A stretch of 64,000 nucleotides of DNA from a virus: the IMG/VR virus record IMGVR_UViG_3300031952_000001, positions 124,001-188,000 of that record; one strand, written 5' to 3'. Positions 839 to 59,472 of this stretch are shown here, piece after piece. Each line of letters begins with the position of its first letter. The stretch's first letter is position 1. The notes under the pieces were generated by a model. The model did no database searches, was not told the DNA's origin, and was given only the letters and a program-made list of their open reading frames with translations. The translations under genes and the position numbers were made by a program.

Positions 839-866
839 TTGACTCTCTTTTCCCGGTGGTTACATT
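839..866 (+). promoter_or_regulatory. Repeat-type promoter, rightward
   Basis: TTGACT, 16 bases ending CCGGTGGT, TACATT. First rightward copy of the repeat family; drives the gene at 906. Confidence 0.75.
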
Positions 867-905
867 TCCCGCTAGGCAGGGCAACGACCAAACGAGGAGG
901 ACGAC

Positions 906-1349
906 ATGGCGGTCAACTGGACAGCGAAACCGGTTCTCACGGACGAGATGGACGAGGGTTTCCGTGTGGTAACGGTGGACGGGGTCAAGCTCAAGTGGTC
1001 GGGCACGCTAGACGTCCCGGATCTAGGAGAGCAAATCCACGTCACGTTCAACGGGTTCGGTCGTGGGTTCGTGCGCGGCTACTGCTACATGGACGGGTTC
1101 GCCGCGCTGCTCGTCGAGCCGGAGAAGTTGCCCGATTGGTACGTCAAGCAGTCAAAGACAACGCACTACAAGCCGGAAATGCCCATGAAGATCATCACCG
1201 TCTTCGGAATCGAATTCAAGACCGTAGATGATCCCTTCCGGTGCCGGTACGACGACTGCTCGAAGGGATACCCGGTCGCCACGGACGACGAACACGTAAC
1301 TTGCCCCGCGTGTCGGAAGGATATGGGCCTGCCTCCCTTGACAGCCTGA
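906..1349 (+). CDS. Hypothetical protein with C-terminal zinc-finger-like cysteines
   Basis: 147 residues. Near the C-terminus a CxxxxC pair, a histidine and a CPAC pair (EHVTCPACRKD) suggest one bound zinc. GAGGAGG precedes the ATG. The last residues and the stop codon lie inside the next promoter repeat (the TGA is in its -35/-10 spacer), so the C-terminus is set by the repeat. Function unknown. Confidence 0.8.
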   Translation: MAVNWTAKPVLTDEMDEGFRVVTVDGVKLKWSGTLDVPDLGEQIHVTFNGFGRGFVRGYCYMDGFAALLVEPEKLPDWYVKQSKTTHYKPEMPMKIITVFGIEFKTVDDPFRCRYDDCSKGYPVATDDEHVTCPACRKDMGLPPLTA

Positions 1350-1365
1350 AACCGGTGGTTACATT
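1338..1365 (+). promoter_or_regulatory. Repeat-type promoter
   Basis: TTGACA, 16-base spacer (GCCTGAAACCGGTGGT), TACATT, followed by the shared leader GGGACAGCGAACAACGGGAGG. Its -35 lies inside the end of the preceding gene. Confidence 0.8.
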
Positions 1366-1399
1366 GGGTAGCAGGGACAGCGAACAACGGGAGGGCAAC

Positions 1400-1639
1400 A
1401 TGGCAACACAGGTCATCGTGAAGAAAAAGAAGTTGTCGGACGGTTCCGAGGTGTTCAACGTTGTGCTCGTGTTCCCCCTTGGTGGTCGTGTGACGTGCCA
1501 CATGGACAGCGAGAAGTCGGCGGAAGATCTGGAATTCCAGTTCAACCGGATTTTCGATCCTGAGAAGACCGGGATACCCACCTTCGGGAAGGCGAACGGG
1601 ATCATCGAAATTTGGGTCGACGGCGACGACTTCAAGTAG
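1400..1639 (+). CDS. Hypothetical small protein
   Basis: 79 residues from an ATG placed eight bases after GGGAGG. A longer in-frame extension upstream crosses the promoter repeat and is rejected. KKKK near the N-terminus, then a beta-rich pattern. No recognised family. Confidence 0.8.
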   Translation: MATQVIVKKKKLSDGSEVFNVVLVFPLGGRVTCHMDSEKSAEDLEFQFNRIFDPEKTGIPTFGKANGIIEIWVDGDDFK

Positions 1640-1645
1640 AAGCCC

Positions 1646-1673
1646 TTGACAGCCTGAAACCGGTAGTTACATT
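1646..1673 (+). promoter_or_regulatory. Repeat-type promoter
   Basis: TTGACA, 16 bases (spacer ends CCGGTAGT), TACATT. Followed by GGGGAAACGAACAACCGAGG. Confidence 0.8.
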
Positions 1674-1709
1674 CCCAGCCAGGGGAAACGAACAACCGAG
1701 GAGGACCGC

Positions 1710-2291
1710 ATGAGCATCGGGGAGAAGGGCACGCTTCCGGCCGAAGTCGTCAACGATATGAAGAAGTCGGCACTCATGGGCGGCATGGTGCCCAAGTCGT
1801 TCGTCGAGTACCACCTGGCGCTCGCCAAGCGGGCGCTTCCGGCCCTGGTGAGCCGGTTCAGGGTCGAGATCGTGACGACGTTCGTCAAGTCGGGCGGGTG
1901 GTTCGACGGCATGAACAACCTGCGCGCGATCCTTCGGAAGTCGGACAACACGCTTCTGGAGATCGTGTGGTACGCATCGGACGGATCGGGCTACTGGATG
2001 AAGGACACCGGGAACGGCCAGGTGATGCTCTTCCCGGAGGACGTAGGCACCCCGCTCAAGTACATGGTTTGCGGACTGGAAGGGGGGATGCTCACGTTCG
2101 ACGACGAATCCGCTTTCGTCATGGAGATGGAGCGGCGAGGGTTCAAAGAGACGTCCCGTAGCGACTCGGCCCCGTGCCACCATCCGAACCTGTGGGATCG
2201 TCCGCAATTCGATACGTTGTGCGGCCCGATGAAGCATGACGATTACATCCGTTATGATACGTGGGAGGAGAACGAGGCGCTTTCGCGCTAG
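1710..2291 (+). CDS. Hypothetical protein, 193 aa
   Basis: A soluble-looking protein with GAGGAGGACC before the ATG. It is under its own repeat-type promoter and followed by another, so it is probably a single-gene unit. No motif recognised. Confidence 0.8.
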   Translation: MSIGEKGTLPAEVVNDMKKSALMGGMVPKSFVEYHLALAKRALPALVSRFRVEIVTTFVKSGGWFDGMNNLRAILRKSDNTLLEIVWYASDGSGYWMKDTGNGQVMLFPEDVGTPLKYMVCGLEGGMLTFDDESAFVMEMERRGFKETSRSDSAPCHHPNLWDRPQFDTLCGPMKHDDYIRYDTWEENEALSR

Positions 2292-2295
2292 TCCC

Positions 2296-2323
2296 TTGAC
2301 ACCCCGCAACCGGTGGTTAGATT
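2296..2323 (+). promoter_or_regulatory. Repeat-type promoter
   Basis: TTGACA, 16 bases (spacer ends CCGGTGGT), TAGATT. Confidence 0.8.
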
Positions 2324-2368
2324 GGGGGTGTGGGAAAGAGAACGGCCGCAACCGAGGGAAGGTGGACC

Positions 2369-2683
2369 ATGGCGTATCCGGGGATCATAAATGTTTCCAG
2401 TAAGTACGGTGCTCCGATGGGTCGCGGGAACCGAATTCCCACGGAAGAGTACAAAGGTGCCACGTACTACAACGTCGGCCCCGCGTGCAAGCTCCACCTC
2501 CGCCGTCTCCGCTTCGTGGACGGTTGCTATGACACGGGCGGCGCGTATTGGGGAATGCCCGCCAATCTGTATCACGCGGTCAACGCGGATCGGACTGTCG
2601 AGGTGTTCGTTCGGGCGGACAGCCGCGAAGAGGCGAAAACAGCCGTGCGCGAGATTCTCCCCACGGTGGAATTCTTCAAGTAG
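2369..2683 (+). CDS. Hypothetical protein, 104 aa
   Basis: Start chosen at the ATG after GAGGGAAGGTGG. The protein contains aromatic and glycine-rich stretches (YYNVGPACKLHLRRLRF) and a helical C-terminus. It is followed after 10 bases by a 45-residue gene under the same promoter. Function unknown. Confidence 0.8.
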   Translation: MAYPGIINVSSKYGAPMGRGNRIPTEEYKGATYYNVGPACKLHLRRLRFVDGCYDTGGAYWGMPANLYHAVNADRTVEVFVRADSREEAKTAVREILPTVEFFK

Positions 2684-2693
2684 GAGAGGGACC

Positions 2694-2831
2694 ATGAAGA
2701 TCACAGTCGAGAAGATCAACGGGTATCTGGTTCTGTCCGCAATCGTCGGCGGGTATCTGGTGCGGCGCAAGTACATGTACTACACGGTCAAAGAGGCGAG
2801 GGCCATGTTCCGCGCCGAGTGCACCGGCTAG
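2694..2831 (+). CDS. Hypothetical 45-aa protein
   Basis: A short gene (MKITVEKINGYLVLSAIVGG...) with AGAGGG before the ATG, co-transcribed with the gene at 2369. The end (ACT/TKEARAMF-like helix, VKEARAMFRAE) resembles small single-domain proteins frequent in tailed phages; that likeness is from memory, not a search. Its stop lies just before the next promoter. Confidence 0.75.
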   Translation: MKITVEKINGYLVLSAIVGGYLVRRKYMYYTVKEARAMFRAECTG

Positions 2832-2834
2832 CAC

Positions 2835-2862
2835 TTGACAGCCCGCAACCGGTGGTTACATT
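2835..2862 (+). promoter_or_regulatory. Repeat-type promoter
   Basis: TTGACA, 16 bases (GCCCGCAACCGGTGGT), TACATT. The repeat from here to the ribosome site is almost identical to that at 4814. Confidence 0.85.
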
Positions 2863-2902
2863 GGGCGGGAGAGGCAACGACCGCAACCGGGGGAGGGACG
2901 CC

Positions 2903-3349
2903 ATGAAAGAGCCCAAGATCACAATGGAGACGCTTCGCACCGCGTTGACGATCATCGAGGAGTGCGGCGGAATTTCGAAGTTTTTGGGCGAAGATGCACC
3001 GTGCCGCCCTTCCCAGTCTTACACGAAACAGCCTACCCGGCTCGCGGTTCTCAACGCCGTCGAGGACACCGTCACGTTCGAAAGGATCGAGCGGGCGCTC
3101 CGCGCGATCTTCACCCGCCAGTGCAACGGCTACGTCCACGAGCGGACGGGGCGCGAGGACACGGAGGGGATGATCCGAGACGAGCGGCGCGAGGCCAAGC
3201 TCCGCGCCAAGGCCGAAGAGCTTGCCAAGCGGATCGGCCTGTCGATCCATTTCAACGGTGACCCACGCGGCGCGGCGATCAAGATCCACACCCCGCGCAC
3301 GGGTGCCTACAACTCTTTCGGAGGTGCCGAAGACGGATGGTGCGTTTAG
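2903..3349 (+). CDS. Hypothetical protein, 148 aa
   Basis: ATG follows GGGGGAGGGACGCC. The middle is strongly helical and charged (ERREAKLRAKAEELAKRIG). Own promoter upstream. Function unknown. Confidence 0.8.
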   Translation: MKEPKITMETLRTALTIIEECGGISKFLGEDAPCRPSQSYTKQPTRLAVLNAVEDTVTFERIERALRAIFTRQCNGYVHERTGREDTEGMIRDERREAKLRAKAEELAKRIGLSIHFNGDPRGAAIKIHTPRTGAYNSFGGAEDGWCV

Positions 3350-3352
3350 CAC

Positions 3353-3380
3353 TTGACAGCCGCTAGCCGGTGGTTACATT
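3353..3380 (+). promoter_or_regulatory. Repeat-type promoter
   Basis: TTGACA, 16 bases (GCCGCTAGCCGGTGGT), TACATT, then the shared leader GGGGCAAGGGACAGCGAACA. Confidence 0.8.
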
Positions 3381-3417
3381 GGGGCAAGGGACAGCGAACA
3401 ACCGGGAGGTGTGAGTC

Positions 3418-3699
3418 ATGGCGAACCGTCATCGGGAAGCACTGGAGATCCAAGAGGGCGCGTGCAACGTCCGGGCAATCGCCCGCGCGCTCGTCAAGGC
3501 GGCCGACGAGGCGGGTAACGAGGGCGGCCCGAATCCGCGCGAGGACGCGGCGGTTCGCCTCATAGCGCACCAGATCGCTTTCTTGTGCAACGTCGCGGAG
3601 ATCGACAACGGTTTCCTGGTGTACTCGAAGCTCGAAGACGAGTGCCGCGCGAAGCGTCCGCCGGTCCCCCCGTGCGAGCGCACCGGTTCCGAGGGCTGA
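3418..3699 (+). CDS. Hypothetical protein, 93 aa
   Basis: GGGAGGTGTGAGTC precedes the ATG. Helical, with a proline-rich end (RPPVPPCERTG). Single gene between two promoter repeats. Function unknown. Confidence 0.8.
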   Translation: MANRHREALEIQEGACNVRAIARALVKAADEAGNEGGPNPREDAAVRLIAHQIAFLCNVAEIDNGFLVYSKLEDECRAKRPPVPPCERTGSEG

Positions 3700-3718
3700 A
3701 AATCGACGCGGCTACCCC

Positions 3719-3746
3719 TTGACCGCCTGAAACCAGGCGTTACATT
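3719..3746 (+). promoter_or_regulatory. Repeat-type promoter
   Basis: TTGACC, 16 bases, TACATT. The spacer core here is AACCAGGCGT rather than AACCGGTGGT, so it is a divergent copy. Confidence 0.75.
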
Positions 3747-3781
3747 GGGGCAAGGCGGAAAGAACAACCGGGAGGCACGAC

Positions 3782-4231
3782 ATGAAGCGCACCGTTGAGA
3801 TCAACGACACCTTGGACGAAACGGTCAAGTCGGCTTGTGATAGCGTCAAAGACGAGGCGCTTTCGTACCTGGATAGCAACGGGGATGAGGACACGGACGA
3901 AGCCCCGGATCTGAACGATCTCGACGACAGGGGCGCGATCCACGAGATCATCGACGGCGCGACTCCGATCTACAACGGGGAGATTCGGGATCTGTGGTAT
4001 CTGTACGCTTCCGACTTCGAGGCGGCGCTCGACAACGCGGGTATGGAGACGACGGCGGACAACCGGCAACAAATCGCGATCTTTTGCTACCTGGAACAAA
4101 CGGTTCTGGGCTGGTACGAGGGCGAGAAGGGCGCGATCTTCGACGAGTGGCGGGAGAAGAACCCGATCCCGGAAGACGAGGACGACGACGAGGAGGAGGA
4201 AGACGAGGAGGAGGACAAGCCCGCCAAGTAG
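3782..4231 (+). CDS. Hypothetical protein with polyacidic tail
   Basis: 149 residues. The C-terminal 20 or so are almost all Asp/Glu (EDEDDDEEEEDEEEDKPAK). Such tails are found in DNA-mimic and nucleic-acid-binding-protein inhibitors, but no specific family is recognised. The body contains a WY-rich helix (IRDLWYLYASDFEAAL). GGGAGGCACGAC precedes the ATG. Confidence 0.8.
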   Translation: MKRTVEINDTLDETVKSACDSVKDEALSYLDSNGDEDTDEAPDLNDLDDRGAIHEIIDGATPIYNGEIRDLWYLYASDFEAALDNAGMETTADNRQQIAIFCYLEQTVLGWYEGEKGAIFDEWREKNPIPEDEDDDEEEEDEEEDKPAK

Positions 4232-4250
4232 GAAATCGACCGGCGACCCC

Positions 4251-4278
4251 TTGACCGTCCCGCCCCGGTGGTTACATT
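4251..4278 (+). promoter_or_regulatory. Repeat-type promoter
   Basis: TTGACC, 16 bases (GTCCCGCCCCGGTGGT), TACATT. Confidence 0.8.
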
Positions 4279-4313
4279 GGGGCAAGGCGAGACGAACAAC
4301 CGGGAGGTGCGGT

Positions 4314-4793
4314 ATGAGGTTCTACACGACTGACGAGATCCGCAAGGTCGCGAAGGGTCACTTTTTCGACCGCGATGCGATGCGGTTCTTCGACTCGCGC
4401 GTGTGCCTCGATGCGTTCGACGGTCCGGGCGGGTGCTACTTCGTGACCTCCGAGCGTATGCGGGGGATCTGCAACTACCCGGCGGGAAAGCGGCTGTACA
4501 CCGTTCGACGGTTCAACCGGAAGACGGGCGCGGTCACGACCCCGCAGTCGTTCCAGGGCTTCGCCAGCCGCACCGGGGCGCTCGCCGCCGCAAAGCGCGC
4601 CAGCGAGGACGCCAGTCCCCGGAGCGCCGCCGCGTGGAAAGCCGCACGCACCCGCGAGGACAACAAACGGCGGGCCGAGGCCGAGGCGTCCCACCAACGT
4701 TGGCTTGCCCATGTCGCGCCGATCCGCGCTCGCGAGATCGAGGAGGACAGGCAACGCAAGATCGAGCGGTACCCGGAGCTTGCGGCCGAGTAG
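4314..4793 (+). CDS. Hypothetical phage protein, 159 aa
   Basis: Start at the ATG after GGGAGGTGCGGT. The first half has an FFDSRVCLDAFDGPGGCYFV pattern and a YTVRRFNRKTG strand that I associate from memory with uncharacterised early proteins of other phages. The second half is a long charged helix, probably coiled coil. No catalytic motif. Confidence 0.8.
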   Translation: MRFYTTDEIRKVAKGHFFDRDAMRFFDSRVCLDAFDGPGGCYFVTSERMRGICNYPAGKRLYTVRRFNRKTGAVTTPQSFQGFASRTGALAAAKRASEDASPRSAAAWKAARTREDNKRRAEAEASHQRWLAHVAPIRAREIEEDRQRKIERYPELAAE

Positions 4794-4813
4794 GGAAACG
4801 GCACGCCCACCGC

Positions 4814-4841
4814 TTGACAGCCCGCAACCGGTGGTTACATT
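4814..4841 (+). promoter_or_regulatory. Repeat-type promoter
   Basis: TTGACA, 16 bases (GCCCGCAACCGGTGGT), TACATT, same spacer and leader as the copy at 2835. Confidence 0.85.
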
Positions 4842-4881
4842 GGGCGGGAGAGGCAACGACCGCAACCGGAAGGGGCGCGAC

Positions 4882-5181
4882 ATGGCGATCCGCGTATACG
4901 ACAACGGATCTCTCTACTCCATTTCTTTCGGGGAAGACGAGATCGAGAGGTTCATGGATTCGTGGCCGTGTTCCGGTTTTGATGGGTTGCGGAACGTGTG
5001 GGCACAATTCGAGAAGTCGAACGGCGATCTTGTCGACCTGGAGTGCAACCGGAGACACGGCGCGGGGAGGTTCGACGGCGCGGCTATGGTCGCCCTCGTC
5101 GATGATATGCAACGCGAGGCGATCCGCCGCAAGGGGAAAGCCTTGGGCGTCGAGTCGCACCTCGAAAGGTTCGCAAGCTAG
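4882..5181 (+). CDS. Hypothetical protein, 99 aa
   Basis: ATG after GGAAGGGGCGCGAC. It contains a FMDSWPCSGFDGL stretch loosely like the FFDSRVCLDAFDG segment of the gene at 4314, so the two may be distantly related. Function unknown. Confidence 0.8.
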   Translation: MAIRVYDNGSLYSISFGEDEIERFMDSWPCSGFDGLRNVWAQFEKSNGDLVDLECNRRHGAGRFDGAAMVALVDDMQREAIRRKGKALGVESHLERFAS

Positions 5182-5185
5182 GCAC

Positions 5186-5213
5186 TTGACAGCCCGGCCC
5201 CGGTGGTTACATT
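5186..5213 (+). promoter_or_regulatory. Repeat-type promoter
   Basis: TTGACA, 16 bases (GCCCGGCCCCGGTGGT), TACATT. Confidence 0.8.
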
Positions 5214-5250
5214 GGGGGATAGGCAAGCGAACAACCGAAAGGGGCGCAAC

Positions 5251-5523
5251 ATGGGAAAGCGGGACGTCGAAATGGTGCCGTTCGGCCGCTTGATGGACCT
5301 GTTGGACCGGCCGGACGCGGATCGTTTGGGGTTCAAACGGGGCAAGGGGATTTTCGACGATTGCCGGGTGGTTTGCTACGCTTCCCGGTCCATGCTCCGC
5401 GAGGTGTGCCGCTTGACGCTCGATCTCGACTTGGACCGACAGGTCGTTGCGCTCGTGAAAGACAAGGTCGCGCCGAACATGGTCGCGATCCCCACGTTCG
5501 AGGTTGAGACGGGCCGGGAGTAG
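5251..5523 (+). CDS. Hypothetical protein, 90 aa
   Basis: ATG after GAAAGGGGCGCAAC. First gene of a three-gene unit (5251, 5574, 5709) with no further promoter until 5902. No motif recognised. Confidence 0.8.
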   Translation: MGKRDVEMVPFGRLMDLLDRPDADRLGFKRGKGIFDDCRVVCYASRSMLREVCRLTLDLDLDRQVVALVKDKVAPNMVAIPTFEVETGRE

Positions 5524-5573
5524 AATCGAACCGGGCGGGCCGACTACCCACCCCACGACAAGGAGAATTTCAC

Positions 5574-5708
5574 ATGGCGAAGGATCACGCGGCGAAGCGT
5601 CTGGCGGTCGAGCTTGCCATGCTCGACGTGTACACGATTCTCGGAATCGACACGTCCCTGCAACGGGCGAGGGTCACGTTCGCCAAGGTCGAATACGAGG
5701 CGCTCTAA
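5574..5708 (+). CDS. Hypothetical 44-aa protein
   Basis: AAGGAG lies nine bases before the ATG. A single amphipathic helix is predicted by eye (AAKRLAVELAMLDVYTILG). Its stop codon abuts the ATG of the SEC-C gene, so the two are probably translated together. Confidence 0.7.
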   Translation: MAKDHAAKRLAVELAMLDVYTILGIDTSLQRARVTFAKVEYEAL

Positions 5709-5849
5709 ATGAAGACAGGGCGCAATGACCCCTGCCCTTGCGGTAGCGGGCGCAAGCTGAAACGGTGTTGCGAGGCCGCCACGCGCCCCACAGTGGGCGG
5801 AAAGCTCGCGGTGGCCCTCCGGTGGGTCCTCCGGGCGCTCGCCGGTTAG
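5709..5849 (+). CDS. SEC-C motif mini-protein
   Basis: A 46-residue protein that is little more than a SEC-C zinc motif: residues 4-21 read [18 protein letters not shown], the family pattern with all metal-binding Cys present. In SecA and other proteins this motif binds zinc and mediates partner or ribosome binding. Here it stands alone, followed by a short hydrophobic helix. GAGG lies eight bases before the ATG. Confidence 0.85.
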
Positions 5850-5901
5850 CGGGGCAACTAGAGCCCTCCGGCGAGATGGGCAGAATCGACCGGCCCACCC
5901 C

Positions 5902-5929
5902 TTGACCGTCGCTAGCCGGTGGTTAGATT
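5902..5929 (+). promoter_or_regulatory. Repeat-type promoter
   Basis: TTGACC, 16 bases (GTCGCTAGCCGGTGGT), TAGATT. The upstream AGAATCGACCGGCCCACCC is also shared with the copies at 6624, 6932, 7626 and 8045. Confidence 0.8.
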
Positions 5930-5967
5930 GGGGGTAGGCAAGCAACGCAACCGGGGAGGTGGGGATC

Positions 5968-6606
5968 ATGGCGTTCGACAACGGCAGGATCGCGGTGGAC
6001 GTGAAAGAGCTTCCGGCGGCGCTTCAAAGGGCGCTCGCTTCCGTGGGGTACGGGCGGAAAAGCATCGACGTCATGCCAGCCGAAACGGCGAGCCTGAGCG
6101 GCGCGGGCGGCGACGGATACCAGGCTTTCGCGACCGTCGTCAACCTGGAGACGGGCGAGTACCGGACCGAGTGGGGATCGTGGGGTGGTGCGAACATGTT
6201 TAACCCCCGCAACGCGGTAGACAATGACCGGAAGGATTACCCGATCCCTGAGAACGGGGCCGTGATCACGGGCCACAAAGGTGGCGGGCGTCCGGTGTAC
6301 GCCACGATCCGCGTAAACCCGGCGGCGCTCGCGCCCCTACTCCCGGCCAAGGCCGAGCTTTCCGAGCGTCAGAGGGTCATTCTCGGAACGGTCCGGGGTA
6401 CGAAGGGCGGCGCGTATCGCCTCGAAGCGTTGAAAGAGTATGGTGTCACGACGGAAGAACTCGACACCTTGATCTCGGGCGGTTTCATGAAGCGGAACAA
6501 GGCGGGCGCGATCTCCATGACGACGGCGGGCGAAAATGAGGCCATGACCGGCGGGCGGCGAGACTCCATCGTTTACGCATACCGGCAGGCCACTCGCGGG
6601 TGGTAA
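5968..6606 (+). CDS. Hypothetical protein, 212 aa, with C-terminal HTH-like segment
   Basis: ATG after GGGGAGGTGGGGATC; an in-frame GTG nine bases upstream overlaps the ribosome site and is rejected. The last third (AELSERQRVILGTVRGTKG ... EEYGV-like, TTEELDTLISGGFMKRNK) reads like a winged helix. The N-terminal part is unrecognised. Possibly a regulator, weakly supported. Confidence 0.8.
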   Translation: MAFDNGRIAVDVKELPAALQRALASVGYGRKSIDVMPAETASLSGAGGDGYQAFATVVNLETGEYRTEWGSWGGANMFNPRNAVDNDRKDYPIPENGAVITGHKGGGRPVYATIRVNPAALAPLLPAKAELSERQRVILGTVRGTKGGAYRLEALKEYGVTTEELDTLISGGFMKRNKAGAISMTTAGENEAMTGGRRDSIVYAYRQATRGW

Positions 6607-6623
6607 ATCGACCGCTCGACCCC

Positions 6624-6651
6624 TTGACCGCCGCTAGCCGGTGGTTAGATT
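6624..6651 (+). promoter_or_regulatory. Repeat-type promoter
   Basis: TTGACC, 16 bases (GCCGCTAGCCGGTGGT), TAGATT. Confidence 0.8.
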
Positions 6652-6689
6652 GGGTGGGAGAGGCAACGACCGCAACCGAGGGGGACCGA

Positions 6690-6935
6690 ATGAACGTCAA
6701 CGAGATCGAGCGCGGTATGGTTCAAGTCATCGTCCCGCCGTCGTTCGTCGCGGCCTTGATCGGAGTGTTGCAGGTTTCGATCCGGCGCTCCGGGACCGTT
6801 ACGGTTTGGTACGCAAACGGAACCACGGCCATGGCGCGGAATCTCTTGGGGCGGAAAGGGGCGATCCCGGACAGCGTTTTCGACCTGGATCGGATGGTTA
6901 AAGAGTCGCGGGGAATCGACCGGTCCACCCCTTGA
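6690..6935 (+). CDS. Hypothetical protein, 81 aa
   Basis: ATG after GAGGGGGACCGA. The final residues (GIDRSTP) and the TGA stop are encoded by the next promoter repeat; the stop is inside its TTGACC. This suggests the original 3' end was replaced by the repeat. Function unknown. Confidence 0.8.
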   Translation: MNVNEIERGMVQVIVPPSFVAALIGVLQVSIRRSGTVTVWYANGTTAMARNLLGRKGAIPDSVFDLDRMVKESRGIDRSTP

Positions 6936-6959
6936 CCGGCCGAAACCGATGGTTATATT
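6932..6959 (+). promoter_or_regulatory. Repeat-type promoter upstream of tRNA-like element
   Basis: TTGACC, 16 bases (GGCCGAAACCGATGGT), TATATT. The transcript would begin with the tRNA-like element at 7001-7062 before the gene at 7097. Confidence 0.8.
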
Positions 6960-7000
6960 GGAAGGGCAGGGGAAAGAGAACGGAAGCGAGATAGAGATAC

Positions 7001-7062
7001 GGCCCGATATATTCTAGTAGCCTAGATCACGGGTTAGCGAGGTTCGACTCCTCGCCGGGCCG
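7001..7062 (+). ncRNA. tRNA-like element, possibly a degenerate tRNA
   Basis: A T-arm is clear: CGAGG, loop TTCGACT, CCTCG (7038-7054). It is flanked by an acceptor-like stem pairing GGCCCG (7001-7006) with CGGGCC (7056-7061), plus an outer C-G pair, and T8/A9 positions are present. Between them only about 28 bases remain, with a TCTAG/CTAGA hairpin, so a normal D-arm and anticodon arm do not both fit. The total is 62 nt, about 11 short of a tRNA. It may be a tRNA remnant, an attachment-site-like sequence or a tRNA mimic. Confidence 0.5.
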
Positions 7063-7096
7063 CAAGGGGAAAACGAACAACACCGGGAGGTGTGAC

Positions 7097-7405
7097 ATGG
7101 CGAAGCTGATGGAGATCGCGAGGGTCAACGTGGACGGGAAGACGGCCAAGCGGATCAACGTCGCCAAGCAGAACGCCCGCGCCGTCGAGAAGGCCGAGGA
7201 CAGGATCGTGCGGATCTCCAGGTTCGCGCACGAGTGCATCGCGGCGGACAAGCCCGCCGTCGTCCGGGAGTCGTGGATCGTCCGGGCGCTCGTCGATCTC
7301 CTGTCGGGTGCGTCCTACTCGCCCCGCGAGCATGAGATCCTCGCCCGCGCCTTGGCGAACGTCCGCCGCGAGATCGCGGTACAGTCGGCCGGTTGCGCGG
7401 ACTAG
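7097..7405 (+). CDS. Hypothetical protein, 102 aa
   Basis: ATG after CGGGAGGTGTGAC. Helical and basic in the first half (AKQNARAVEKAEDRIVRISR); the rest reads like a helical domain (VVRESWIVRALVDLLSG), somewhat like RHH/CopG-type regulators. Follows the tRNA-like leader. Confidence 0.8.
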   Translation: MAKLMEIARVNVDGKTAKRINVAKQNARAVEKAEDRIVRISRFAHECIAADKPAVVRESWIVRALVDLLSGASYSPREHEILARALANVRREIAVQSAGCAD

Positions 7406-7416
7406 GAAGGCACCCG

Positions 7417-7605
7417 ATGAAAACCCTCATGGACGATCTCTTGTACGCTTGGGGAGAGTTGATCGATCTCAGGCGCAAGGTACGAGATAAAGGCGGGCCG
7501 TGGGGTGCGGCCGATCTGGCGGTACACGAAAGGCTCGTTTCTGAGATCGATACCCTCGTCGGGAGGTTGCCGGAGGGTTGGAAGGCGTGGAAGGAAGAGG
7601 GTTAG
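7417..7605 (+). CDS. Hypothetical 62-aa protein
   Basis: AGGAAGG precedes the ATG, 11 bases after the upstream stop, so it is in the same transcript as the gene at 7097. Helical, tryptophan-rich at the end (EGWKAWKEEG). Function unknown. Confidence 0.75.
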   Translation: MKTLMDDLLYAWGELIDLRRKVRDKGGPWGAADLAVHERLVSEIDTLVGRLPEGWKAWKEEG

Positions 7606-7625
7606 AGAATCGACCACCCCACCCC

Positions 7626-7653
7626 TTGACCGCCCGCCACGGGTGGTTATGTT
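7626..7653 (+). promoter_or_regulatory. Repeat-type promoter
   Basis: TTGACC, 16 bases (GCCCGCCACGGGTGGT), TATGTT; a weaker -10 than its relatives. Confidence 0.7.
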
Positions 7654-8576: not shown

Positions 8577-8861
8577 ATGTCACTGGAAATCAGGAACGAG
8601 GAACACTACAACGCAGTCGTGGCCTTCGCCGAGGCGGAGGGGATCGGGGATAAGCTCCGCGAGGTGTTGGACTACCTCGACGGGTACGCCAATCACGACG
8701 CCCGCGAGAAGGGCGAGCCGGACGCCACGATCTGTAAGCTGTTCCCGGATTTCGCTCCGCAGTCGTTCAGTTTCGTCATGGAGAAGGGCGGCCGGTTCTG
8801 GTTCAACGGTGGGGCAATCTTCTACGGTGCCAGCGATCCGAGGTGGGGGGTGCACACGTAG
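8577..8861 (+). CDS. Hypothetical protein, 94 aa
   Basis: GGGGAAGGTGAACCC precedes the ATG. Last gene of the left arm, 57 bases after the gene at 8110 with no promoter between. Function unknown. Confidence 0.8.
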   Translation: MSLEIRNEEHYNAVVAFAEAEGIGDKLREVLDYLDGYANHDAREKGEPDATICKLFPDFAPQSFSFVMEKGGRFWFNGGAIFYGASDPRWGVHT

Positions 8862-9002
8862 GCCAACCCTCGCCCAACCTTCGACACCTACAGTCAACCA
8901 CTCCAGACTACCCCAACCTTCGACCCACTCAAAACAAAGATGAGGGGGGAGATCTCCAGGTTGCCAGCTAGGGGCAGGGGGGAAAGGTAGACTAGCTCTT
9001 TC

Positions 9003-9218
9003 CCTGGTAGTCAAGGGTCAACCTCTCCCCTGGTAGGTGTTCCCCTGGTAGGTAGCAAAGGCCGCTAGTTGTCCCACCAGGGGTTTCCGCAGGTCCATGG
9101 CAACCCTCGCCGAGCCCTCGCCCAAGGTCAACCGGAAACCTGAGATCCCGACAACCCTAGACAAGCCCCCTGGTAGGCTCGCCAGTCGCCTCGAACGAAA
9201 CCCTACCCCTACCAGGGG
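9003..9218. repeat. CCCCTGGTAGG repeats in both orientations
   Basis: CCTGGTAG at 9003, CCCCTGGTAGG at 9027 and 9042, CCACCAGGGG near 9074, CCCCCTGGTAGG near 9166 and CCTACCAGGGGGG near 9208. Two direct copies are 15 bases apart; the others are inverted or spread. Confidence 0.75.
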
Positions 9219-9318
9219 GGAAGGACAAGGGACCGGCCCACGGCGGCGCTCCGCGAGCCTCGACAAGCCTATAGGAGACGGGCCGGGATCTTGACTACTC
9301 GCCGAGGCTGGAGATATA

Positions 9319-9385
9319 TATGGTCACGGCGTGACCATACATTCCCGTGACCATACATGTATGGTCATGACCATATGTGACCATA
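9319..9385. repeat. Cluster of six GTGACCATA half-sites and palindromes
   Basis: TATGGTCAC, GGC, GTGACCATA (9319-9339) is one inverted repeat. TGACCATACATGTATGGTCA (9348-9367) is a perfect 20-bp palindrome. Two further direct half-sites start at 9367 and 9377. This looks like a multi-site protein-binding region, either operators or an initiator site. Confidence 0.8.
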
Positions 9386-10070
9386 CCGGGCCGGTGAATC
9401 TCGGCACGAGGGGGAGATCGGGGTGATAGGTAAGAGATCGGGATTATGGGGAAATCTCGGATCGTTTGGATCGGTTAGGGGTAGACGTAGGGGGAGGGGG
9501 GAGATGTAGGCATATAGGGGGGAGGTGGATTGGAGCAGCCCCACGATCACATCATCACCCGACAGAGATCGCGCAATCTTTGCGTACCTCGCAAAAAGGT
9601 CACAACACATGCCACATCCAACCCTCGATCCCGCGATCTCCATCGATCCCGCCTAGAGATCGCGCAACCATCCGTCAACCCTCGATGATCTCCCCCAATC
9701 TCCATCAAGAGTCGGCCGAGATCGGCCAATCTTGGCCTGGTACGGGCCGAGCTTGGCCCTTGTCGGGCCGCCCGGACCTTCGCCGATCTCCGCCCACCTT
9801 GAACCACAATCGATGGACCTGGACACGAGCCCGATGGATCGGCCGGCGCTCGCACATGTTGGTAGAGATTAGCTAATGATTACGGTATGTTAAAGGTGTA
9901 GGGCCAAGGTTGCGCCGAGCATGGGCGGGGATCGGCCGATGGATCGGGGAGGCCGGGGGAGATCGGGGAGGATTGCGGGGGGATTGGGCAATCTCTGCCC
10001 CTGATTGCGCGATCCCCATCGGATCGCGTGCTAGATCGCGCGATCTCGAAAGATCGGGGGCTGCCCCCAA
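9370..10070. repeat. GATC/GCGCAATC-rich repeats
   Basis: Many short related words (GATCGGG, GATCGCGCAA, GATTGCGCGATC) occur on both strands, with a perfect palindrome AGATCGCGCGATCT at 10033-10046 and GATTGGGCAATC near 9983. Function unknown. Confidence 0.55.
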
Positions 10071-10249
10071 TATACACCGACCCTCCCCAACATTCCCAAA
10101 ATCCCATCGGGTCCCATCCTATACCTTACAAATCCTTGAAATCATTGAATAATATTTCCCGAAAATTCCGGGTCCCCTTTTTCCCCTACAACCCTGCCCA
10201 AAAAGGAGCCTGGCTTCTAGATCCGGCCAAGGTTTGGGTCCCCTCCTAT

Positions 10250-10690
10250 GGTACAGGTAGGGTTGCCCGAGCCCGGCCGAACCCTGGGCCGCCAACCCTA
10301 GGCCAACCCTGCTGGAGGAACCCTGGACACCTCAGACGGAACCCCTTGCTGCCGGCGGCCCCTCAAGGTCGACCCCAACCTCCAACCCTTCCAACCTTCC
10401 CAACCCTTCCCAAGACTACCCCAACCCCAGGGCAAGGCAGGGTTGGACCTTCAGCAACCCTTCAGCTGAACCTTGAACCAAAGGTACCCGGGGTTGGGCC
10501 CCCAGGGGAAAATAGGGATCGCGATCTCGGTCTGGAGGGATCGGTGGAGGGTTGCCGAGTCGAACCCTACGTTGAGGTAACCTTACAAGGGTTGGAGGTA
10601 AGTATAGGTTCGAGGGTTGAAGGGAGGGTTGCCGAGGGTTGAGGAACCCGGGGACCTCAGGCCCCCTCAAGGTTGGAACCTTGGGATCGT
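10250..10690. repeat. AACCCT / AGGGTTG repeat block
   Basis: CCAACCCT, GAACCCT and their complements recur every 10-25 bases in both orientations. The same words dominate the non-coding block at 58861-59300. Confidence 0.65.
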
Positions 10691-10703
10691 GCGATCTACA
10701 GGG

Positions 10704-10733
10704 TTGACCTTGGGAAGGTGGCTGTGTTATATA
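10704..10733 (+). promoter_or_regulatory. Promoter for the 10.75-12.4 kb operon
   Basis: TTGACC, 18 bases, TATATA. A ribosome site (GGGAGGTG, 10743) follows within ten bases. Confidence 0.65.
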
Positions 10734-10755
10734 TTCAGCCACGGGAGGTGTTACC

Positions 10756-11181
10756 TTGAGACGCACTATGAAGCAAAAGCTGATCGGCTGCAAAGATGGA
10801 GCTGCAAAAGAGATCGAGAGGCTTCTGGCCCGCATGGAGGAGCTGAGGGCTTTGATAATCATGGTTGACGGAATCCTGGAGGGGGAGAAACCCCTGGAAG
10901 ACGACCCTCGTGCGCACCTCAGGGCGTCCAGGGGATCTGGGAGGATCAACGACCTGCTTCTGGCGGCGTGCGTTGATTGGAAGACGATCAACGAACTCAT
11001 GGAGGTGGTCCCTGAGCTGCAAGGGAGACACCCCGCGGGGATCAGCACGCGGTGCCGCCTTCTGTGGCTGGGTGGGCTCCTGGAGCGCCGATCCGCCGTT
11101 CCTTGTCCTCCCGGGAGGTACCCTCGCAAGGGGAGGGCGGGGTACACGTACAAAACGTTGAAGACCGCTCTCAGAGAATGA
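10756..11181 (+). CDS. Coiled-coil/winged-helix paralog, TTG start (copy 1)
   Basis: TTG start five bases after GGGAGGTG; the first ATG (10768) is too far away. The N-terminal half is a coiled coil (EIERLLARMEELRALI), followed by a conserved core: a C..WKT helix, an ISTRCR..LW recognition-like segment, a G.LERR wing and a terminal GYTYKT. The same modules recur in the genes ending at 12936 and 19729. Likely a DNA-binding protein of a phage-specific family; target unknown. Confidence 0.8.
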   Translation: MRRTMKQKLIGCKDGAAKEIERLLARMEELRALIIMVDGILEGEKPLEDDPRAHLRASRGSGRINDLLLAACVDWKTINELMEVVPELQGRHPAGISTRCRLLWLGGLLERRSAVPCPPGRYPRKGRAGYTYKTLKTALRE

Positions 11182-12935: not shown

Positions 12936-13595
12936 TCAAGAGGGCTTGCGACGGTATCGGTGCTCTCGGGGGGCTCCCTGACGCTTCAAGGGGACGTCCT
13001 CCCGCTCCAGGAAGCCCTTGTCTAGGAGCCTTATGAGGTACGGTCTGAAGTTGGCGTGGCAGACCACCGAGAATCCCGGGATCAGCTTCTTCAGATCGTG
13101 GATAGTGTACCAGGTGTCGTGCTCTTCGAACCATTGGCGGAGGATCTTCTCGAAGTCGCCATAGCTTCGACGAGGTATCCTTCCGGACCAGAAGGCAGGC
13201 CCTGCGTTCAGGGATCGGTACTCGTACTCCTGGTGATTGAGAGGGTTGTGGGGCGGGAGGGCGACTTGGCGGCGTTCCAGGCACCCACGCACCCACAAGT
13301 CTCGGCACCTGGTGCTGATGTTCGATTTTGAGAGGTTCCCGAATTTCTGGAGGTCGGAGAGCTGGCGGACAGTCTTCCAGGATTGACAGGCGGTGAAGAT
13401 CTTCTGATCAGTACCTCTAGGTGCCGGCTTTTCGGAATTCTCTCCAAACGGTGCGTCCGTCTCCTTGGAAGGTGTCAGGATGTCGTCCAAGGTCTTGATC
13501 ACACCCCTCAAAACGGCGACCCGGAGTTCGAGTGCTTCCAGCTCCTGGAGGGTTTCGTCTCGGTACCTTCTGGTCTTGTCGTCCAGGGATTCCAA
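12936..13595 (-). CDS. Coiled-coil/winged-helix paralog, TTG start (copy 2)
   Basis: 219 residues from a TTG; no Met is available near the conserved N-terminus, and the paralog at 20334 aligns from the same place (LD.KTRRYRDETL.E.E.LE). After the coiled coil come ACQSWKT, SKSNISTRCRDLW and GCLERRQ. This copy has an extra C-terminal winged-helix-like unit (FEKILRQWFEEHDTWYTIHD ... RLLDKGFLERED). Likely DNA-binding. Confidence 0.8.
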   Translation of the reverse strand: MESLDDKTRRYRDETLQELEALELRVAVLRGVIKTLDDILTPSKETDAPFGENSEKPAPRGTDQKIFTACQSWKTVRQLSDLQKFGNLSKSNISTRCRDLWVRGCLERRQVALPPHNPLNHQEYEYRSLNAGPAFWSGRIPRRSYGDFEKILRQWFEEHDTWYTIHDLKKLIPGFSVVCHANFRPYLIRLLDKGFLEREDVPLKRQGAPREHRYRRKPS

Positions 13596-19429: not shown

Positions 19430-19732
19430 CTATATAGTCATGCCTGTGGGAAAGTCAAGAGGCCAGAAGGGTTCCAGAACGTCGAGTGCCTTGAGGGTCG
19501 TCGAGACCAGGTTATGCTCGTGCATGTACCAGTCGATGTGTTGGTCAAGGAAGTTGTCGAGGTGCTCCTGCCGCTCCGCGAGCCAGACGTTCTTCTTGGT
19601 GATGAGCGCCACGAGGCTCCCGTACTTCCGTAGGTTGACCTCGATGGAGAACTCCAGGTTCTCGATGCTGGAGAGGCCTTCGCGATAGATGCTGTAGCAG
19701 GCCCCTTGCTCATTCACGAACCAGGTCTTCAT
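19430..19732 (-). CDS. Hypothetical protein, 100 aa
   Basis: ATG overlaps the upstream stop (ATGA); AAGGA precedes it. The stop lies within the next promoter. Mixed alpha/beta with an LAERQEHLDNFLDQHIDWY helix. Function unknown. Confidence 0.8.
   Translation of the reverse strand: MKTWFVNEQGACYSIYREGLSSIENLEFSIEVNLRKYGSLVALITKKNVWLAERQEHLDNFLDQHIDWYMHEHNLVSTTLKALDVLEPFWPLDFPTGMTI
19431..19458 (-). promoter_or_regulatory. Second-type promoter, leftward
   Basis: On the minus strand TTGACT, 16 bases ending GGCATGAC, TATATA. It lies inside the 3' end of the upstream gene and drives the 19405-12464 operon. Confidence 0.75.
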
Positions 19733-20334
19733 GTTTCAGAGTCCTTACCGTACTGGTACGTGTTCGGATCAAGATAAATGGAAGGACGTGGTGGGGGGTC
19801 CTTGGAACCCTTCCACCGTGCATTGGCTGCCTTGCTGGAGATTTCGGAACGGCGCTCGGGGGTCAGAGACGCGGCCCTCGCAGGACCGCCCTTCCGACCG
19901 CCGAGCTGACCCATAGACACAGCTGCGGGGTTCTTCCCATGGTCCGGGGTCTTGTACTCGTATCTCTTCGGGTGCTTGCGCGGGGGCCGAAAGGGGCGCT
20001 CTCGTCGTTCGAGAATCCCGTGCTCCCACATCCAGCGGCACTGGGTGCAGAGGTTCGACTGCGAGAGGCTTCGCAGGTCTTCGGCCGAGTCGGAAATCTC
20101 TCGTATGGTTTTCCAAGTGGTACACACGGCCTTGATGGTGTCTGCTATCAGGCTGCTCGCGCGCCCTTCAGCCTTCAGGGGTGGGTTGGTCTGCTCGGAT
20201 GAGAACTCCAGGACACTGTTCAAAGCCTTTACCACGATTCGGAGACTCGCGAGCTGCTGTTCAAGGCTCTCTATTTCTAGGAGGGTCTCGTCTCTGTACC
20301 TACGGGTCTTTTCATCGAGGGTTTCCAACTTCAA
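19729..20334 (-). CDS. Coiled-coil/winged-helix paralog, TTG start (copy 3)
   Basis: 201 residues from a TTG five bases after GGAGG. The N-terminus (LDEKTRRYRDETLLEIESLE) closely matches copy 2 at 13595. The core is CTTWKTIREI, LSQSNLCTQCRWMW, GILERRE and a terminal YEYKTPD. The C-terminus is different: GGRKGGPARAASLTPERRSE and SSKAANARWKG, a motif common in phage and plasmid DNA-associated proteins. Likely DNA-binding. Confidence 0.8.
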   Translation of the reverse strand: MKLETLDEKTRRYRDETLLEIESLEQQLASLRIVVKALNSVLEFSSEQTNPPLKAEGRASSLIADTIKAVCTTWKTIREISDSAEDLRSLSQSNLCTQCRWMWEHGILERRERPFRPPRKHPKRYEYKTPDHGKNPAAVSMGQLGGRKGGPARAASLTPERRSEISSKAANARWKGSKDPPPRPSIYLDPNTYQYGKDSET

Positions 20335-52908: not shown

Positions 52909-52920
52909 CAAGTTTATGCA

Positions 52921-53032
52921 GGTCCGCGAAGCGTCAGTCGGACCACCTAAGGTCTGCGAAGTGTCAGTCAGACCACAATAGGCCCGCGAAGCGTCAGTCG
53001 GGCCACTCAACGGATGCCCTCGTGATGAGGGC
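52921..53032 (+). repeat. Three tandem 24-nt hairpins with covarying stems, plus one more hairpin
   Basis: Hairpins at 52921-52944, 52951-52974 and 52981-53004: 6-bp stem, 12-nt loop (CGAAG(C/T)GTCAGT), 6-bp stem, 30-base period. Stems change but still pair: GGTCCG/CGGACC, GGTCTG/CAGACC, GGCCCG/CGGGCC. A fourth, GCCCTC/GAGGGC, lies at 53016-53032. They follow a tail gene and precede the next tail gene. Confidence 0.85.
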
Positions 53033-56128: not shown

Positions 56129-56147
56129 CCATGTTGACATTCAAGTA

Positions 56148-56234
56148 GGTCGCCTGGCTTAAAGTGCGACCGACTGAAGGCCGCCTGGATTCGAGTGCGG
56201 CCGATGGGGAGGCCGCCTGGATTAAAGTGCGGCC
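56148..56234 (+). repeat. Three tandem 24-nt hairpins with covarying stems
   Basis: Hairpins at 56148-56171, 56179-56202 and 56211-56234: stem GGTCGC/GCGACC then GGCCGC/GCGGCC twice, loops CTGGCTTAAAGT, CTGGATTCGAGT and CTGGATTAAAGT. Same 6 + 12 + 6 architecture and C...AGT loop ends as the array at 52921. Period 31-32 bases. Confidence 0.85.
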
Positions 56235-56278
56235 GATGAGAGAAAGGGTTCTGATCTTGCGCCCGGCGGGGCCCGGTG

Positions 56279-59000: not shown

Positions 59001-59472
59001 CCCCTTCTGGGAGCTGAAAATACCATAGGTTTGAACCCTTCAAAGAGGTCTTGACTATACCTTCCTGGCGGTTGCATCGATGGTTACTATTTTATTAGAA
59101 GTTATACGTTTCATAACCCGAAATACTGTCAAAATTATTCAATGATTTATAGCGAACTAGCCTCTTGACTATACCTTGCCGACGGTTAGTGGCATACCTT
59201 CATAGGGTTGGAAGTCAAGGGGAAGATGGGCCTCAAATTCAACCCTCCCGGGAAGGGTCTTGGGTTGCAACCGCTGGTAAACAAGATGTCAAGGCCTTTT
59301 GAAGGGTGTTAGAAGGCCTAGCCGCTCAAGGCCGCGCGCCGTGCGCCACTGGTATTCTTGCGCTTTTCAACTGGGTATTGCAGCTGGTGTCCGTTTTTAC
59401 AGTATTTCTATCTTTCTAACTCGGTTTTCAACCTTTTCAACCCTGTTTTTGCGTTTTTTGCCGAGGGTATTC

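Follow-up and report, generated by a model that had tools for sequence, protein, structure and literature searches.

A recurrent half-site array, proposed to be a cooperative operator, in the largest noncoding gap of a tailed phage genome

Six exact copies of an 8-bp half-site (TGACCATA/TATGGTCA, counting both strands) are packed into 67 bases of a tailed phage genome, and the same half-site, with common spacings and flanking bases, recurs in many unrelated environmental phages. The best explanation, and one that carries about half of our confidence, is that this 67-bp element is a double-stranded DNA operator, occupied cooperatively and belonging to a recurrent family of TATGGTCA arrays. The element lies in a 64,000-nucleotide stretch of DNA, referred to here as the window, that comprises bases 124001-188000 of a 211,982-base IMG/VR virus record. 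The source is a tailed phage, its TerL matching PHROG terminase families, and the nearest named relative is Virus Rctr197k (KX853510.1), with a TerL identity of 36% over 85% of the query. The array is absent from Virus Rctr197k, in which two CRISPR repeat regions (110803-112317 and 119281-119535) are annotated near transposase-like genes.

Organization and setting of the array

A preliminary description of this DNA had reported six half-sites between 9319 and 9385, and all six proved to be exact copies of TGACCATA, starting at 9319 (-), 9332 (+), 9348 (+), 9360 (-), 9368 (+) and 9378 (+). A longer word, GTGACCATA, is present in four exact copies (9319-, 9331+, 9347+ and 9377+) and a variant, ATGACCATA, in two (9360- and 9367+). 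Of the two inverted repeats reported, the perfect 20-bp palindrome stood, but the count had to be raised to three, a 21-mer, a 20-mer and a 16-mer, which overlap or adjoin one another (Table 1). In 60 dinucleotide shuffles of the window, in which any 8-mer was counted on both strands, the top cluster within 67 bp contained three copies, versus the six observed. Half-sites scattered frequently through the genome, which had been named beforehand as telling against a real site, were not seen: across all 211,982 bases of the record, GTGACCATA, the exact 9-mer, has one copy outside the cluster, and its one-mismatch copies are dispersed singles. Judged by its sequence, the cluster looks like a genuine protein-binding site. 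The fold of the + strand RNA was not unusually stable (z -0.29), which favours action of the array as DNA, and a structured RNA or riboswitch was rejected on this value and on the absence of even a near-threshold match in Rfam.

Table 1. Features in and around the half-site array (window coordinates)
Feature	Position	Strand	Basis or remark
Half-site array, six TATGGTCA/TGACCATA	9319..9385		exact word search and shuffles
Inverted repeat 1, head-to-head, 21 bp, one unpaired central base, TATGGTCACG-G-CGTGACCATA	9319..9339		sequence
Direct half-site pair, 16-bp offset (TGACCATACATTCCCGTGACCATA)	9332..9355	+	equal offset in G003 and L016
Perfect 20-bp palindrome TGACCATACATGTATGGTCA, tail-to-tail, offset 12	9348..9367		palindrome search
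Perfect 16-bp palindrome TATGGTCATGACCATA, head-to-head	9360..9375		palindrome search
Direct pair in 10-bp phase, TGACCATATGTGACCATA (= TATGGTCACATATGGTCA), recurrent core	9368..9385	+	33 IMG/VR contigs
Largest noncoding gap in the record, containing the array	8862..10767		hexamer-based gene caller
Promoter-like TTGACT-N18-TATATA	9291..9320	+	phage-type match; -10 overlaps first half-site
AT-rich 15-mer AAATCATTGAATAAT	10139..10153	+	one other copy in the record, 59134-59148 (-)
Promoter-like TTGACC-N18-TATATA	10704..10733	+	35 nt 5' of next gene
Predicted winged-helix-like protein, first gene downstream	10768..11181	+	paralogues at 12936-13595 (-) and 19729-20334 (-)

The noncoding gap that contains the array is flanked by + strand genes, and gene orientation switches to the - strand from 12464. 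The earlier statement that no gene adjoins the array was borne out, the nearest predicted genes ending at 8861 and beginning at 10768. No relatives of the flanking genes were found in IMG/VR. Other repeats were noted in the same gap: CCCTGGTAG words are repeated in direct and inverted orientation at 8990-9220, just 5' of the array, and CCTGGTAG is about 30-fold enriched in the gap. Elsewhere, tandem repeats with 30- and 32-bp units, about three copies each, occur at 52920-53006 and 56147-56238, the latter between two structural-region genes.

Recurrence and placement in other phages

The 10-bp-phased pair TATGGTCAYATATGGTCA was found in 33 IMG/VR contigs, several of which are near-duplicates, leaving about 28 distinct ones; the reversed pattern, searched as a control, was found in none. 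Bases outside the search pattern were also conserved (29 rows used), with A in 23/28, a pyrimidine (Y) in 27/28 and a purine (R) in 27/28 before the first unit and Y in 27/29 after the second, and further units were present at +20, +30 and -20. The GC content of the array contigs ranged from 0.38 to 0.68, with 0.69 for the whole G012 record. As defined in this analysis, the array family is recognized by two or more TATGGTCA units set in 10-bp phase and joined by a pyrimidine-A/purine linker, an arrangement present at 9368-9385 (reverse complement TATGGTCACATATGGTCA), and by tail-to-tail TGACCATAYATGTATGGTCA with an offset of 12, present at 9348-9367. The set of offsets is small (direct 10, 20, 30 and 16; tail-to-tail 12; head-to-head 13). 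The tail-to-tail offset of 12 was seen in five phages (the window, G008, G009, G020 and G025), the direct offset of 16 in three (the window, G003 and L016), and the head-to-head offset of 13 in two, the window and G012, the latter with one mismatch. When GACCATAYATGTATGGTC, the core of the 20-bp palindrome, was used as the search pattern, two contigs matched (L036 and L071), both with 10-bp arrays. Most of 24 larger records, read piecewise, contained one array each. The preliminary description had proposed a cooperative operator or an initiator site at an origin; because of the helical-phase spacing and the recurrence of the half-site and its spacings in unrelated phages, a dense cooperative protein site is well supported, while the origin was not established (see below).

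In 20 comparison records the array was intergenic, and in 10 of these it lay in the largest gap of the genome, whereas noncoding bases picked at random would give 4.6 (P ~0.006, or 0.012 with one of a related pair dropped), figures that derive from approximate per-genome gene calls and from records of which several are fragments. The phage studied here is an additional case of largest-gap placement. Divergent genes flanked 10 of the 20 intergenic arrays.

Searches of isolate phages and plasmids for similar DNA gave no match, and a literature search for the sequence found no use of it apart from an unrelated Dictyostelium paper. Triple half-site matches in bacteria were set aside; among the matches listed, most were coding repeats with spacings in multiples of three, and none had the Y-R linker. 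A protein site built from repeats is of a known kind, and we could not match the TATGGTCA array family to anything known in this analysis. The operator of a phage usually evolves together with the repressor encoded beside it and varies between phages; here, about 28 unrelated environmental phages, with GC contents of 38-69%, retain one exact 8-bp word and its 10-, 12- and 16-bp spacings without a detectable common regulator. This recurrence makes the finding more interesting than was first noted and, if real, would point to a widespread, unrecognized family of phage regulators or to a host factor that many phages need.

Two other repeat-rich regions were encountered among these records. In a different phage, TGACCATAGGGT is repeated about every 22 bp (L013:7934-8035), apparently within a winged-helix-like gene, which may represent iterons lying within an initiator gene, as in lambda O. 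A 166-kb phage (L019) has a 3.1-kb noncoding region (G003:382-3490) dense in CCCTATGTGACC-type repeats, which also contains TGACCATA arrays with 10- and 16-bp steps.

Candidate binding proteins and alternative functions

Protein families encoded within 2.5 kb of 29 arrays were mixed, with only a serine recombinase recurring, and genome-wide blastp clusters of the array phages consisted of ordinary phage genes with no universal family. That no protein family is common to the array phages, either near the arrays or genome-wide, counts against an operator. It is the point in favour of another explanation, that the array is the binding site of a conserved host protein exploited by many phages, as the array is common to these phages yet no phage protein was common to them in any search. 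We nevertheless give this explanation little credence, since the core was found in none of 586 whole bacterial genomes from two phyla; a host regulon would be expected to show the core in its own hosts, although those need not belong to these two phyla.

In the phage studied here, the first gene downstream of the array (10768-11181) is one of three winged-helix-like paralogues, all no more than 11 kb from the array, and its product may be a regulator. AlphaFold modelling of this protein alone was too poor to use (mean pLDDT 40.6), whereas modelling with its paralogues gave a mean pLDDT of 58.5, with about 75 for the helices at 54-101 and a moderately confident three-helix core. No relative of the family was found among the other array phages, so the paralogues are candidates for this phage only, and a search of isolate phages with 12936-13595 found no relative either.

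The serine recombinase was encoded in 5 of 25 comparison array records, in this phage and in L013, versus none of 24 controls; the resulting tally of 6 of 26 array records includes this phage and two related phages. It begins 0.5-0.8 kb from the array in three phages (G002, G015 and G016) and lies 39 kb from it in this phage. For this enzyme as the binder, the association is no more than suggestive, and most array phages lack it. The array might also serve recombination, its half-sites being arm-type sites for a tyrosine integrase or, for a small serine recombinase, accessory sites, which we regard as highly improbable: the half-site resembles lambda arm-type sites, and the recombinase tally is in favour, but tyrosine integrases were found in 3 of 25 comparison array records versus 5 of 24 controls, and most array phages have neither kind. 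The arm-type sites of lambda integrase are, like the array, tandem copies of a 10-bp word of similar sequence; unlike them, the array occurs in phages that mostly lack a tyrosine integrase, and an attP of such an enzyme was rejected for this phage, from which PF00589 is absent. In this phage, an HTH_7 protein is followed directly by the small serine recombinase (L005:9989-10708), with a Resolvase and part of a Recombinase domain, the two spanning L005:9702-10708, and homologues are found near arrays in L206, L218 and L219.

The main rival to the operator is a replication origin, in which the half-sites would be initiator-binding iterons and the GATC-rich gap and the 15-mer at 10139 would form the rest. 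We consider it unlikely, although several observations are consistent with it: arrays number about one per genome and often sit in the largest noncoding gap; a primase gene is about 400 bp from the array in two phages (G001 and G010); and the gap in this phage holds the densest GATC kilobase of the genome, a 41-fold enrichment of AGGGTTG repeats (19 of the 51 genome copies) and, 0.8 kb from the array, an AT-rich patch of 28% GC. The 15-mer may be linked to the array; its second copy lies in another large AT-rich noncoding gap (58.7-59.8 kb), and the two gaps also have AACCCT repeats in common. However, the GC-skew analysis that had been proposed as a check revealed no minus-to-plus switch at the array, the skew following gene orientation, and AT-rich patches near the arrays were inconsistent across phages (random-window fractions 0.02-0.57). 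No initiator gene adjoins the array and none is common to the array phages; a P4-type D5_N domain was found in one of 26 array records, which is not this phage, and this phage encodes a DnaB-type helicase. The half-site spacing is irregular, unlike that of classical iterons. The type I iterons of P4, decamers bound by the alpha primase-helicase, are also 10-bp repeats in a noncoding region, with words that somewhat resemble those of the array, but the array is of mixed orientation, and neither this phage nor 24 of the 25 comparison array records have the D5_N-type helicase. An origin of the P4 alpha type was rejected for this phage because PF08706 is absent.

Direct repeats in 10-bp phase resemble parC-type sites and sites wrapped by terminase, and the array could accordingly be imagined as a ParR- or ParB-like centromere or as a small-terminase (pac) site wrapped in 10-bp phase. 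Packaging would fit five records in which a terminase gene, read in the direction away from the array, follows 2-5 kb downstream of it, but the terminase of this phage is 52 kb from the array. For partition, ParA was found in 3 of 27 records and ParB_N in 3 of 27 (one strong match and two weak ones, including this phage), and we think either function quite improbable. Plasmid centromeres of the ParR/StbA type, with direct repeats of 10-11 bp, share with the arrays the helical phase and the occurrence of about one array per genome; they differ in that the array phages have no partition genes in common and that palindromic offsets of 12 and 13 belong to the element. A parABS or parMRC centromere was not supported in this phage, in which searches for PF13614 and ParB_N gave, respectively, no match and only a weak match 24 kb away.

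Promoter overlap and the proposed operator

The promoters of this phage are of the type TTGAC[AT]-N16/17-TATA[GT]T, usually located 20-50 nt 5' of genes and also before the tmRNA gene. A predicted promoter resembling this type (9291-9320) overlaps the array, as would be expected of an operator. The preliminary description had favoured an origin or long-range control, whereas this overlap with the first half-site favours local control of transcription. A stricter generic consensus promoter scan did not list 9291-9320, so its activity as a promoter is presumptive, and there is an appreciable probability that a promoter-like match would fall close to a noncoding site of this phage by chance. No common promoter was seen at the arrays of the comparison phages, and the overlap is thus not general.

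According to the operator reading, the half-sites, extended to R-TGACCATA-Y-R, would be bound next to one another by several copies of a single sequence-specific protein. Occupancy of the first half-site, which overlaps the -10 and transcription start region of the promoter-like sequence, would block or gate rightward transcription, which would otherwise enter the 1.4-kb noncoding stretch towards 10768. The array, its rarity in this genome, the half-site, spacings and flanks common to the phages, the placement and the overlap with a promoter-like sequence were observed; protein binding, cooperativity, repression and a single protein family for all arrays are what we infer. A point against this scheme is that the transcript would have to cross about 1.4 kb before reaching the next gene, and that gene has a promoter-like sequence of its own. 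Operators of the lambda OR/OL type similarly have several similar half-sites, inverted repeats and promoter overlap in the main noncoding region; unlike them, the array also has half-sites placed head-to-tail, some in 10-bp phase and some at 16-bp steps, lacks an adjacent repressor gene of a known family, and shares its half-site with unrelated phages. More generally, TATGGTCA arrays would stand, usually singly in each genome, in the main noncoding region or a divergent control region of many unrelated environmental phages. It is conceivable, though we hold this more tentatively than the operator itself, that they represent an undescribed control element of dsDNA phages, either spread by horizontal transfer or maintained through convergence, at about one per genome in the main noncoding region, and read by one phage- or host-encoded DNA-binding protein that would set a central decision, for example the early-late switch or the start of replication.

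Two further observations concern the promoters of this phage. The tmRNA gene (L005:17345-17713; record 101,345-101,713), for which ARAGORN gave the tag ADADVIPFPKMAVPSLQREAA with an unusual end, is preceded by a phage-type promoter and has tRNA-Met and tRNA-Pro genes nearby. In addition, a second promoter class, TTGAC[ACT]-N16-TACATT, with GGTGGT just 5' of the -10 and often GGGG just after it, precedes many short early genes on both strands (window 839-7653 and L004).
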